The notes beneath the pieces are model-generated. The model had not been told where the DNA came from. It did not search any database and worked only from the letters and a program-made list of their open reading frames with translations. Below, piece after piece: positions 19,313-61,948 of a stretch of 64,000 nucleotides of DNA (position 1 is its first letter; every line of letters begins with the position of its first letter). Origin of the DNA: Actinomadura parmotrematis (lineage in GTDB: Bacteria; Actinomycetota; Actinomycetes; Streptosporangiales; Streptosporangiaceae); assembly GCF_019458805.1 (NCBI RefSeq), contig NZ_JAIBOA010000003.1, positions 372,001 through 436,000 of the forward strand, written 5' to 3'. Both the position numbers and the translations under genes were made by a program.

Positions 19313-20014
19313 ATGGGCGTGGGACGCGGCCTGGCGGCGGTGGCCGCCGCGCTGCTGGCGGTGGCCGGGGGGCCGGGGGCGGGCGCGGCGCGCGCCTCGG
19401 CGGAGCCGGCGGCGTCCAGCACGGGCGGGCGGGTGCGGATCACCGACATCCCGGCGCTCGGCCAGAACGGCTTCACCGGCCGGGGCGGCGCGGTCGCGGT
19501 CGGGGCCGAGGGCGGGGAGCGGCGGGCCGACTTCAACGACCTGACCGAGGGGACGGGCGACTACCTGAGCTTCACCGGCCCGACGGGCGCCGTCTACGGC
19601 GAGCCGCTCGGGCCTGTCCGGGAGGCGGTCAGCGATCCGGGCGCGGTCGCGGCCAAGCTCAACCCGAACGGGCGGGCGCTGGTCGTGCTGCCCGAGGTGT
19701 ACACGCGGGCGCGGTGCGCGCCGCCGGAGGCGCCGCTGACGCGGAACGCCGTCGCCCGCGCGTCCGTCGCGGGCCACCGGGTCGGCGCGGGCACCACCCG
19801 CGTCCGGGCGGGCGCGGCCTATCTGGGCCTCGCCCGGGTCGCGCGCGGGGAGCTGAAGGTGCGGCTCGTCCAGGTCAGGCGGACGTCGCCGGGCGCCGCC
19901 GAGTCCCGCGTCGAGGTCACCGTCAGCGGCGCCCTCTACGACCGCAAGGGCAAGCGCCTCTACAAGGGCCCCCTCATGAAGCTGACCGCCGCCGACGTCC
20001 GCGTCCGCTGCTGA
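19313..20014 (+). CDS. Secreted protein of unknown function
   Basis: A 233-residue exported protein with a Sec signal (GLAAVAAALLAVAGGPGAGAARA, cleavage about residue 30). The mature part is beta-rich, with DFNDLTEGTGDYLSFTGPTGAVYG and a C-terminal segment RVEVTVSGALYDRKGKRLYKG, and has only two Cys. No family is recognised. Its TGA stop is the first triplet of the 102-bp palindromic element that follows. Confidence 0.7.
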   Translation: MGVGRGLAAVAAALLAVAGGPGAGAARASAEPAASSTGGRVRITDIPALGQNGFTGRGGAVAVGAEGGERRADFNDLTEGTGDYLSFTGPTGAVYGEPLGPVREAVSDPGAVAAKLNPNGRALVVLPEVYTRARCAPPEAPLTRNAVARASVAGHRVGAGTTRVRAGAAYLGLARVARGELKVRLVQVRRTSPGAAESRVEVTVSGALYDRKGKRLYKGPLMKLTAADVRVRC

Positions 20015-20113
20015 CCCTCCGGTCACTGAAAGTTGAGATGCGGCGTGTTGGGCACTTTCGATCGTCGGAGTGCCCAACACGCCGCATCTCGACATTGCGC
20101 GACCACCTGGTCA
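20012..20113. repeat. 102-bp palindromic element, copy 1
   Basis: Outer 14-mers are TGACCCTCCGGTCA (20012-20025) and CGACCACCTGGTCA (20100-20113). The central 62-bp unit (20032-20093) has 25-bp arms with GAGATGCGGCGTGTTG and a 12-nt unpaired centre. Both spacers are 6 bp. The first TGA is the stop of the secreted-protein gene. Arm type A/A. Confidence 0.9.
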
Positions 20114-20160
20114 TGGGGTCGGCGATCGGGGGCCGGACGGCGTCCTGGCAGGGTGGGGGG

Positions 20161-20658
20161 ATGGAACGGGAGATCCCGCAGGAATGGGAGCGGCGCTGCG
20201 CCGCGCTCTGGGACGCCTTCGACGACCACGAGCCGGACGCGTTCCGCGCCGCGATGGCGGGCCTCGCGGGCGAGCTGCCCGCCGGGCACCCCGCCGGGGT
20301 GTTCGAGCGGGCGTCCGCCGCCGATGCCACCGACCGCGAGGCGGAGGCCGTCGCCCTCTATCGGGAGGCCCTCGACGCGGGGCTGGACGGGGCGCGGCGC
20401 CGCCAGGCCGTCATCCAGCTCGCCAGCACGCTGCGGGCCGTCGGCGACGCCGCGGCCGCCGCCGCCCTGCTGGAGGAGGAGCGGGACCGCTGCTCGGACG
20501 CCCTGGACGGCGCCGTCCTCGCGTTCCTCGCGCTCGCCTACAGCGACCTCGGCCGCGAGCGCGAGGCCACCGCGCTCGCGCTCGGCGCCCTCGCCCCGCA
20601 CCTGCCCGCCTACCGGAAGTCGGTGGCCCGCTACGCCGAGGCCCTCACCCGTCCCTAG
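20161..20658 (+). CDS. TPR-type repeat protein
   Basis: A 165-residue all-helical protein resembling the short TPR_5 group: helices RREAEAVALYREALDAGL-like (residues 55-75), RQAVIQLASTLRAVGDAAAAAALLEEE and AVLAFLALAYSDLGREREATALALGAL form about three tetratricopeptide units. It is probably a protein-interaction module in the cytoplasm. The start is ATG 20161 after a G-rich ribosome site. It lies 47 bp downstream of palindromic element copy 1, and its stop overlaps the next convergent gene by 4 bp. Confidence 0.8.
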   Translation: MEREIPQEWERRCAALWDAFDDHEPDAFRAAMAGLAGELPAGHPAGVFERASAADATDREAEAVALYREALDAGLDGARRRQAVIQLASTLRAVGDAAAAAALLEEERDRCSDALDGAVLAFLALAYSDLGREREATALALGALAPHLPAYRKSVARYAEALTRP

Positions 20659-60408: not shown

Positions 60409-60677
60409 GTCGACGCGCTCCTTCGGGGGAGGAGGCGGAACCGGCGTCAGGGGTGGTGTCCGGTCCGCTTCGGGGGGATATCGACGCCTGCATGGTGCGC
60501 GCGGGCCCCCGTCCCGCACATCGGCGATATCGCCCGTCTTGTCGGACGGCCCGTCCGATAACGCCTTACCGGACGCGGCGGGCGGCGGTGCGCGGGCCGT
60601 CAGCGCCCGGTCAGCGGTCCCGGCGAACCTTTCCCTCGTGAGCCCGCGACGGCGGGCCGGAACTGAGGAGAGACACC
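60409..60677. promoter_or_regulatory. Divergent control region of the cutinase and FAD monooxygenase genes
   Basis: 269 bp with two tight palindromes in tandem: GGCGATATCGCC (60523-60534) and TCGGACGG-C-CCGTCCGA (60542-60558), the second of TetR-operator character. Both lie close to the middle of the gap, so one regulator could control both directions. Confidence 0.55.
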
Positions 60678-61835
60678 ATGACGAAGGTTCTGATCTCGGG
60701 CGGCAGCATCGGCGGCCCGGCCCTCGCCTACTGGCTGGTCCGGTACGGCTTCGAGGTGACGATCGTGGAGACGGCGCCCGCGCTCCGCCTCGGCGGCCAG
60801 GCGGTGGACGTGCGCGGCCCGGCCCTGGAGGTCGCCGAGCGGATGGGCGTCCTGGACGCGGTGCGCGCCGCCCGGGTGCGGATGCGCGGCATGTCGATGG
60901 TCGACGGCGACGGCGACGAGCTGTACCGCAGCGAGGAGCACACCATCACCGGCGGCGACCTGGCCGGCCCCGACGTGGAGATCCTCCGCGAGGACCTGTC
61001 GGTCCTGCTGGCGGACGCGGCGGGCGGCGTCGACGGCGGCCCGGTGGAGTGGCTGTTCGACGACTCGATCGCGGCGCTGGAGGACACCGGCGACGCCGTC
61101 CGGGTGGTGTTCCGCGGCGGCGCCGTCCGCGACTTCGACATCGTCGTCGGCGCCGACGGCCTGCACTCCAACACCCGCCGCCTCGCGTTCGGGCCCGAGG
61201 AGGACTGCATCCGCCACCTCGGCACCTACATGGGCGTGTGGGCGGCGCCGAACACCCTCGGCCTGGACGAGTGGCAGGTCTTCCACCAGGCGCCGGGCGG
61301 CTCGTGGGGCGGCGGCGTCATGACGGTCCGCGAGAACCGCGAGCTGCGCGTCTACCTCGGCTTCGAGGCGCCCGAGCCGATCGCCTACGACCACCGCGAC
61401 CGCCGCGCCCAGCAGGCCCTGCTGCGCGAGCGCCTCGCCAACGCGGGCTGGGAGATCCCGAACCTGCTGGACGCCATGGACGCCGACCCCGGCTTCCACT
61501 TCGACGCGATGGCGCAGATCCACCTGGACTCCTGGTCGCGCGGCCGCGTCGTCCTGCTCGGCGACGCCGGGTACTGCGGGTCGCCGCTGTCGGGCCAGGG
61601 CACCAGCATGGCGATGGTCGGCGCGTACGTCCTGGCGGGCGAGCTGAAGGCGGCGGGCGGCGATCACCGGGCGGCGTTCGCGGCCTACGAGCGGGAGCTG
61701 CGCCCCTACGCCACCGCCAACCAGGAGCTCGCCCTCACCAACCGGGCCCGCGCCGAGGCCCAGCAGGCCGGCGAGGACGCCGGCGTCCCCGACTTCGCCG
61801 AGGTCGTCGCGGGCATCGACCTCACGTCCTACTGA
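60678..61835 (+). CDS. FAD-dependent aromatic/tetracycline-type monooxygenase
   Basis: A 385-residue flavoprotein hydroxylase of the group A (TetX/PHBH-like) family. FAD-binding ISGGSIGGPALAYWL, DVRGPALEVAERMG, the DG motif VVGADGLHSNTRR, and LLGDAGYCGSPLSGQGTSMA for the second FAD contact. NAD(P)H-driven hydroxylation of an aromatic or polyketide-like substrate is expected. Divergent from the cutinase across the two palindromes. Confidence 0.92.
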   Translation: MTKVLISGGSIGGPALAYWLVRYGFEVTIVETAPALRLGGQAVDVRGPALEVAERMGVLDAVRAARVRMRGMSMVDGDGDELYRSEEHTITGGDLAGPDVEILREDLSVLLADAAGGVDGGPVEWLFDDSIAALEDTGDAVRVVFRGGAVRDFDIVVGADGLHSNTRRLAFGPEEDCIRHLGTYMGVWAAPNTLGLDEWQVFHQAPGGSWGGGVMTVRENRELRVYLGFEAPEPIAYDHRDRRAQQALLRERLANAGWEIPNLLDAMDADPGFHFDAMAQIHLDSWSRGRVVLLGDAGYCGSPLSGQGTSMAMVGAYVLAGELKAAGGDHRAAFAAYERELRPYATANQELALTNRARAEAQQAGEDAGVPDFAEVVAGIDLTSY

Positions 61836-61846
61836 CCCCCGCCCCA

Positions 61847-61948
61847 TGACCACCCGGTCGCCGAAGGTTGAGATGCGGCGTGTTGGGCTCTGGGAGCGCT
61901 CCCAGAGCCCAACACGCCGCATCTCAACGTCGAGTGACCAGATGGTCA
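61847..61948. repeat. 102-bp palindromic element, copy 5
   Basis: Outer 14-mers TGACCACCCGGTCG (61847-61860) and TGACCAGATGGTCA (61935-61948), 6-bp spacers. The 62-bp centre (61867-61928) is a perfect palindrome with no loop, core GGGAGCGCTCCC. The right 14-mer supplies the stop codon of the NUDIX gene. Arm type A/A. Confidence 0.95.

Follow-up and report, generated by a model that had tools for sequence, protein, structure and literature searches.

The window analysed here is a 64,000-nucleotide stretch of the Actinomadura parmotrematis genome (contig NZ_JAIBOA010000003.1, positions 372,001 to 436,000), in which a 102-bp palindromic element occurs five times. The five copies are also the top five inverted repeats listed for the window. 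They were found exactly where a first-pass annotation had placed them, and each is segmented according to the same 14-6-62-6-14 plan: a 14-mer of the TGACC-N4-GGTCA type, a 6-bp spacer, a 62-bp palindromic core, a second 6-bp spacer, and a second 14-mer (Table 1). Copy 3 fits exactly between two stop codons and overlaps both. Copy 2 is not at a gene end, because the nearest called genes are several hundred nucleotides away. As argued below, the copies belong to a dispersed Actinomadura family of palindromes located mostly near the 3′ ends of genes, a family best explained as a miniature inverted-repeat transposable element (MITE) with a hairpin that could serve as a two-way terminator.

Table 1. 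Features of the five elements in the window, and loci in other Actinomadura genomes used in the comparisons.
Feature	Window position or locus	Remark
Copy 1, left 14-mer (TGACC-N4-GGTCA type)	20012..20025	TGA = stop codon of + gene 19313-20014
Copy 1, 62-bp palindromic core	20032..20093	
Copy 1, right 14-mer	20100..20113	
Copy 2, left 14-mer	23218..23231	
Copy 2, 62-bp palindromic core	23238..23299	nearest called genes 448 and 287 nt away
Copy 2, right 14-mer	23306..23319	
Copy 3, left 14-mer	51048..51061	TGA = stop codon of + gene 49446-51050 (AMP-binding enzyme)
Copy 3, 62-bp palindromic core	51068..51129	
Copy 3, right 14-mer	51136..51149	TCA = stop codon of convergent - gene 51147-51542 (histidine-kinase-like ATPase)
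Additional lone 14-mer, 29 bp before copy 4	57937..57950	TGA = stop codon of + gene 56785-57939 (PucR-type regulator)
Copy 4, left 14-mer	57980..57993	
Copy 4, 62-bp palindromic core	58000..58061	
Copy 4, right 14-mer	58068..58081	
Copy 5, left 14-mer	61847..61860	
Copy 5, 62-bp palindromic core	61867..61928	
Copy 5, right 14-mer	61935..61948	TCA = stop codon of - gene 61946-62464 (NUDIX)
Judged copies of Actinomadura sp. CNU-125	L023, L038, L039, L040, L056, L065, L081, L087, L103	
~1.27-kb IS630-family transposon, CTAG-type ends	L401, L406, L407, L413, L416, L417	genomes G049, G056, G062

Architecture and sequence conservation

The spacing of the element was examined in 70 elements of the window genome, where a 14-mer stands at exactly 6 bp from the core on 133 of 140 sides and is missing from the other 7; none of the 140 sides has a 14-mer at any other distance within 25 bp. 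In 1.245 Mb of the same genome, 43 fuzzy matches were obtained, and the arm-to-arm gap is exactly 24 bp in all 41 that are real elements. The remaining two, with gaps of 27 and 20 bp and without the shell of 14-mers, look like chance. Length variants were nevertheless encountered: one exact-arm copy in the window genome has 25 inner bases, three of the places scored in a covariance search (150 of 5787 candidates) measure 101 bp, and two centres in another species have 23 bases. The invariable segment lengths proposed in the first-pass annotation therefore hold for the 6-bp spacer on every 14-mer-bearing side sampled, but give way elsewhere to one-base differences. Its further proposals, that the spacer sequence is free and that geometry matters more than sequence, are correct in that the spacers vary, but the N6 sequences of the window genome are C-rich (with no positive correlation between left and right), and sequence conservation is strong in the half-sites of the 14-mers as well as in the arms of the core.

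The two parts of the element are conserved in different ways. In 64 elements of the window genome, selected because both 14-mers are present, each of the eight half-site positions is conserved in 119-128 of the 128 sites and no covariation was found between left and right 14-mers, while the inner four bases are most often ACCC (51/128). Pairing of the left with the right 14-mer was rejected because this covariation is absent, and an origin of the 14-mers as a duplicated target was rejected because N4 is inverted rather than direct and does not covary. The core arms of the window genome covary between left and right at positions 6, 7, 20-24, 26, 27, and 30 (z 5.0-7.9), and those of Actinomadura sp. 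GC306 at positions 20-22 and 26. Copies in A. bangladeshensis differ little from one another, and covariation there is seen at 24 and 31 only and falls below expectation at 27 and 28. Since the arms covary and the 14-mers are fixed, the core behaves like a palindrome whose arms pair, and the 14-mers like recognition sites of constant sequence; the 14-mers, being near-invariant without covariation, are likely to be bound by a dimeric protein.

The centre of the core is non-random and sorts into classes CTGGGAGCGCTCCCAG, TTGAAACGTTTCAA, TTTGAAGATCGAAA, and others. Centres such as TGGGAGCGCTCCCA and TTGAAACGTTTCAA, for example at 51092-51105 of the window, show what we take to be a resemblance to LacI-type operators. 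As a separate observation, the elements at C23:31482 and C55:222782 of G000 have in common an unusual right arm, CGGCACGCCGC; in RNA from one of the strands, two G.U pairs would nevertheless allow this arm to pair.

Copy number and distribution in the genus

The genome-wide count recommended in the first-pass annotation revealed many copies. A search of the whole window genome, which comprises 7.59 Mb in 60 contigs, for GCGGCGTGTTG-N(10-40)-CAACACGCCGC gave 131 exact matches, compared to 0 for the reversed control, and 147 copies at ≤3 mismatches with the centre fixed at 24. About 130 of the 147 have perfect arms, though their centres and spacers differ. The repeat is short (62-102 bp), geneless, and dispersed, with the core in 131-147 copies, as is expected of a MITE. 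No lone arm with ≤1 mismatch was found outside pairs in the 1.245 Mb, and the 21 lone-arm matches at 2-3 mismatches, of which 18 fall in coding sequence, are probably fortuitous. We argue that something reads the arm sequence, because near-perfect arms occur beside variable centres and lone arms are absent at this threshold. Three-element clusters with differing centres were also seen within 0.7-0.9 kb in G000 (C1:448370-449168, C2:126266-126977, and C55:221935-222863).

Beyond the window genome, the exact core is present in 18 of 65 Actinomadura genomes, with 1-131 copies each, and absent from the other 47. In a scan of named genomes, every locus among the matches listed belongs to Actinomadura; the holders among these matches are A. 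livida, A. latina, A. meyerae, A. bangladeshensis, A. darangshiensis, A. rupiterrae, and Actinomadura sp. GC306, KC345, CNU-125, and BRA 177. The 62-bp core is an Actinomadura family. A scan of 298 family genomes at ≤3 mismatches gave matches in 49, in many of these no more than in the control, and a compensated variant, GTGTCG...CGACAC, occurs in two genomes of another genus (17 times in G113 and 8 times in G152). The 14-mer plan, TGACCN4GGTCRN6GTYGA, was counted 93 + 92 times in the window genome and 0-2 times per genome in the other 64, which is about the control frequency. The core is thus shared among genomes, and the 14-mer shell is a trait of one genome in this sample.

Copy number differs between neighbours in a tree built from one gene: G043 has 51 copies vs 1 in G002 and 0 in G036 and G052, G008 has 29 vs 0 in G028, G007, and G024, and G047 has 71 vs 0 in G049. 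On this tree, 7 changes are required to account for 10 high-copy and 9 low-copy genomes, compared to a shuffled mean of 6.7, in a count that left out 44 zero-copy rows. Viral contigs gave 0 matches to the repeat. The first-pass annotation recognised no described family; Rfam gave 0 matches over its curated threshold in the 64-kb window, and no description of the repeat was found in the literature searched, which consisted of freely accessible papers.

Position relative to genes

Genes were called with a codon-based caller of our own. Two called neighbours were available for 151 of 175 elements, and the placement test took 58 of 70 elements from the window genome and 93 of 105 from other species. 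The 105 elements of the other-species set are those among the matches listed, a scope that applies to all other-species counts of placement and flanking sequence given here. They were collected by exact arms, which accounts for their perfect arms; the fair figure for arm perfection is that of the window genome, given above. The core overlaps a called gene by >8 nt in 0 of the 175 elements.

Random blocks in intergenic DNA served as the null for placement. Among the contiguous elements of the window genome (n = 40), 62.5% have a stop codon no more than 50 nt away vs 11.3% for the null, and 5% have a start at this distance vs 18.6%. The corresponding figures for stops in the other species (n = 93) are 83.9% vs 14.5%. 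Divergent placement amounts to 5-8% in the two sets, compared to 29-31% for the null. Mapping to gene ends, another step suggested in the first-pass annotation, therefore shows that copies are enriched near stops, though copy 2 of the window is an exception. The proteins flanking the elements (276) include clusters of 2-7 relatives. A recurrent neighbouring gene was rejected as the mobiliser, since none of the annotated proteins, which are the window's own, is a transposase.

The element also supplies stop codons. Of 95 gene ends in the window genome, 17 use the outer TGA of the 14-mer as their stop codon; in other species, 28 of 147 gene ends use the TGA within the GTTGA motif of the core. 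The argument from stops supplied by the 14-mer is softened by the fact that TGACC is already the commonest stop context in the window genome (273 of 1074 called stops). Lone intergenic 14-mers are few, with 13 in 1.245 Mb, and the TGA is a stop codon in 8 of them. A lone 14-mer at G000:C4:65822 joins the stops of two convergent genes.

Presence and absence at orthologous sites

The orthologous loci whose comparison had been advised differ in the presence of the element, as is expected of a mobile element. Copy 3 has a counterpart in Actinomadura sp. GC306 (L032), where the orthologous site is occupied by a core that lacks 14-mers. For copy 4, no core is present in the matching spacers of G019 and G018, the flanks of which are ~72% identical. 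In Actinomadura sp. CNU-125 (G043), 9 of the 12 listed copies could be judged vs G002 and/or G036 (Table 1), and 0 of the 9 are present there; L047 and both copies of L060 were left unjudged, and L056 falls inside a longer gap in the relatives. A core with ≤4/22 arm mismatches was found in none of the 17 fetched loci. Loose core patterns gave chance matches, in G001 and as flags for L371, L381, and L372; one 5-mismatch match occurs in L371 and L381, away from the site. Compared with G002, L040 is an almost clean insertion: CTAG flanks the insert on either end and is also present at the empty site. Downstream of eccC, where 57 of 63 loci were readable, the element occurs only in the window genome and G043. 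In the same region (L245-L262), a hairpin like GCGGGTCCCGGCCTCGGGGGGATGGGCCGGGACCCGC, with small changes, was seen in 11 of 30 loci viewed.

The centres provide additional information on the movement of copies. In both CNU-125 and A. bangladeshensis, elements at different loci share one 24-base centre, namely 5 of the 12 listed CNU-125 elements and 6 of the 32 listed A. bangladeshensis elements. In three aligned pairs, the element is at the same site and the centres differ, and in two of the three a three-base block is changed on both arms. At the L041 site, G026, G064, and the window genome carry an unrelated GC-rich sequence, which is a palindrome in G026 and G064.

Other palindromes were observed at these loci. 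At an orthologous site in two species (L049 ~2045-2080 and L076 ~2400-2435), a repeat of the form GTCAGCGGGATGTCC..GGACATCCCGCTGAC adjoins the element; its 9-mer GGGATGTCC recurs elsewhere among the loci, which may be coincidence. G064, a genome without the exact core, has a further repeated palindrome, CTGTCCGGGGG..CCCCCGGACAG (L298-L307, joined-stretch offsets 27513, 29760, and 180992).

Links to IS630-family transposases

Of 196 other-species arms, 26 have beside the core a module, CTAGTGCGGTG..ACCGGGT or one related to it, compared to ~2 expected at the match threshold used. This module is the inverted end of a ~1.27-kb insertion sequence, the transposase of which belongs to the IS630 family (NF033545, 166.2 bits, cut-off 100). 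The transposase frame is open in G049 and G056 and broken in G062, and the insertion sequence is also in A. bangladeshensis (G004), as judged by end spacing. In two other species, G022 and G045, the core lies between two IS630-family ends, forming ~133-bp units at four fetched loci. The tetranucleotide CTAG is enriched near elements of other species, where 51 of 210 sides have it at a distance of up to 60 bp, but hardly near those of the window genome, where 6 of 140 sides do (1.5% expected in each). The target duplication of IS630-type elements is TA or CTAG. The window genome has an IS630-type copy with readable ends, which differ from those of the ~1.27-kb type, and this IS630 was rejected as the mobiliser on account of the mismatch.

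Folding and possible transcription termination

Single-strand folds of the five window cores are very stable (z -10 to -16), a stability that follows from the palindrome. The predicted folds place a stable hairpin near gene 3′ ends, as in an intrinsic terminator. The element would fit a bidirectional terminator without a U-tract, owing to its location, its two-way symmetry, its built-in stops, and the unrelated GC-rich sequence that replaces it at the L041 site.

Interpretation and alternative explanations

The explanation that we consider probable is a MITE with a two-way-terminator hairpin. Copies would spread in trans by transposases, with an IS630 route traced in other species only. Those inserted just behind genes would be retained because the ~27-31-bp hairpin, together with stops on both strands, could end transcription and translation from both sides. 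The first-pass annotation had offered a non-autonomous mobile element, a specialised terminator for convergent genes, and a protein-binding platform; for the core, the mobile element is the best supported of the three because of presence and absence at orthologous sites, centres common to unlinked loci, and ~133-bp units between IS630-family ends. The IS630 route explains part of the family and not the window shell, since these ends are found in part of the genomes only.

A number of observations weigh against a MITE with a terminator hairpin. The window genome gave 0 matches to the IS630 ends at ≤1 mismatch, so that we infer the mobility of the window subfamily from the family, and the core-rich genomes G008, G020, G043, and G054 are without these ends as well. 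Direct repeats of 2-9 bases were sought at the 14-mer ends of the window genome and at the core ends of other species, and a target-site duplication was rejected as none was found. The presence of copy 3 in another species also fits an old resident, and the absence of CNU-125 copies from two relatives could be loss in both. In the window genome, 62 of 70 centres are distinct and the copies are consequently not fresh; arm covariation is clear there and slight in A. bangladeshensis. A purely selfish element should leave decay remnants, and lone arms are absent. On the terminator side, the hairpin has no U-tract, and 0 of the 3 copies in 45000-63000 are among the four terminator-like sites found there. 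Selection on the sense RNA was rejected, because G.U mismatches number 27 in the sense and 27 in the antisense orientation of 64 tandem elements, which gives no sign of selection on the transcribed strand.

If the hairpin has no terminator function, the family would be a purely selfish miniature element, found at 3′ ends since these tolerate insertions and hold CTAG. The CNU-125-specific copies, the common centres, and the IS630 ends and CTAG in other species would be expected of such an element, and pneumococcal repeats are likewise enriched between convergent genes, which the accessible text of PMC3049150 reads as tolerance. However, other-species elements with no CTAG nearby keep close to stops all the same (of 53 such elements, 77.4% are at most 50 nt away), and perfect arms in most copies of the window genome, beside differing centres and spacers and without lone arms, do not suit it, which makes it possible but doubtful. 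It is rather unlikely, though less so than the transposase and uptake alternatives below, that the 102-bp form is a platform for one or more proteins reading three dyads at fixed spacing, with dimers on both 14-mers and the core between them as a palindromic site or cruciform. At gene ends, such a platform could block or insulate convergent transcription, or organise DNA. The half-sites conserved without left-right covariation, the spacer of 6 on all 133 sides that bear a 14-mer, the plan so frequent here and at 0-2 in each other genus genome, mismatches without RNA-strand preference, and the apparent likeness of some centres to LacI-type operators are all in its favour. The platform is opposed by the 47 of 65 Actinomadura genomes without the exact core, by the scarcity of lone 14-mers, and by the 29 copies along the single-contig genome G008, the clustering of which is not significant (Kolmogorov-Smirnov p 0.085). 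A housekeeping role in chromosome organisation, in particular, is disfavoured by the absence or near absence of the core in most genomes of the genus.

Two further explanations derive from known repeats. Mobilisation by a RAYT-type Y1 transposase, as for REP sequences, agrees with a palindromic, extragenic, high-copy repeat and with Y1_Tnp matches in some core-rich genomes (G022, G043, G045, G054, and G004). There is, however, no Y1_Tnp match in G047 (71 exact copies), G008 (29), or G020 (10), only one partial match in the window genome, and a core within ~1.5 kb at 0 of 20 fetched Y1_Tnp loci. This route was rejected as very improbable, given that copies do not track Y1 transposases and none of those fetched is flanked by cores. 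Paired uptake signals with a second role in termination, of the kind found in Neisseria, would share inverted pairs at gene ends and conserved arms. Uptake signals occur mostly singly, and the absence of single arms at ≤1 mismatch in 1.245 Mb leaves this idea with hardly any probability. Uptake signals are also generally present 1,000 times or more per genome, according to the accessible text of PMC1852404.

The MITE with a terminator hairpin could also have acquired a new role. On a tentative view that we hold to be rather unlikely, a mobile hairpin repeat was domesticated genome-wide in one lineage as a protein-armed two-way transcription barrier with three dyads, more than 100 gene-end copies each having gained two dimer-binding sites at an invariant distance. 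If true, this protein-armed form would be a new and surprising kind of bacterial gene-end insulator. The confinement of the rigid shell to 1 of 65 genomes makes the arming of dispersed repeats with protein sites testable. More generally, the family shows how a miniature element may become gene-end punctuation: each copy offers either strand a hairpin along with a stop codon, and exact-arm copies number 29-131 in some genomes but 0-1 in their neighbours in the one-gene tree. For annotation, some Actinomadura gene ends are set by these repeats.

Comparison with known systems

REP sequences and BIMEs are, like the Actinomadura family, palindromic extragenic repeats, from which the latter differs in that its copy number does not follow Y1 transposases. 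The neisserial uptake-signal terminators described in the accessible part of PMC1852404 have conserved arms in inverted pairs that form hairpins at gene ends; unlike these, the Actinomadura arms have no single copies at ≤1 mismatch. In Streptomyces clavuligerus, the accessible text of PMC8269248 reports Bi-TEPs, at which both strands end in long stable stems, and, separately, stable I-shaped hairpin ends without a U-tract. The Actinomadura element would be alike in its predicted long stable stem without a U-tract. To our knowledge, the hairpin ends of S. clavuligerus are not copies of one sequence, whereas one Actinomadura sequence is repeated more than 100 times.

The most similar known repeats are found in the pneumococcus. 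As presented in the accessible text of PMC3049150, RUP (repeat unit of pneumococcus) is a non-autonomous repeat of ~107 bp, the ends of which resemble IS630 transposon ends, and SPRITE is a terminator-like hairpin repeat near convergent 3′ ends, suggested to be a co-opted terminator. The ~133-bp Actinomadura units resemble RUP in also carrying CTAG-type IS630 ends. The window copies, however, have no such ends or target duplication and follow the rigid 14-6-62-6-14 plan, and both sequence and phylum are different. SPRITE shares with the Actinomadura repeat a hairpin enriched near gene 3′ ends, but is AT-rich with a U-rich tract, whereas the Actinomadura element has no U-tract and combines GC-rich conserved arms with flanking 14-mers. 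Collectively, the repeat is a real and well-bounded family of the MITE/REP kind, with RUP and SPRITE as its closest counterparts and an unusual, rigid three-dyad form.

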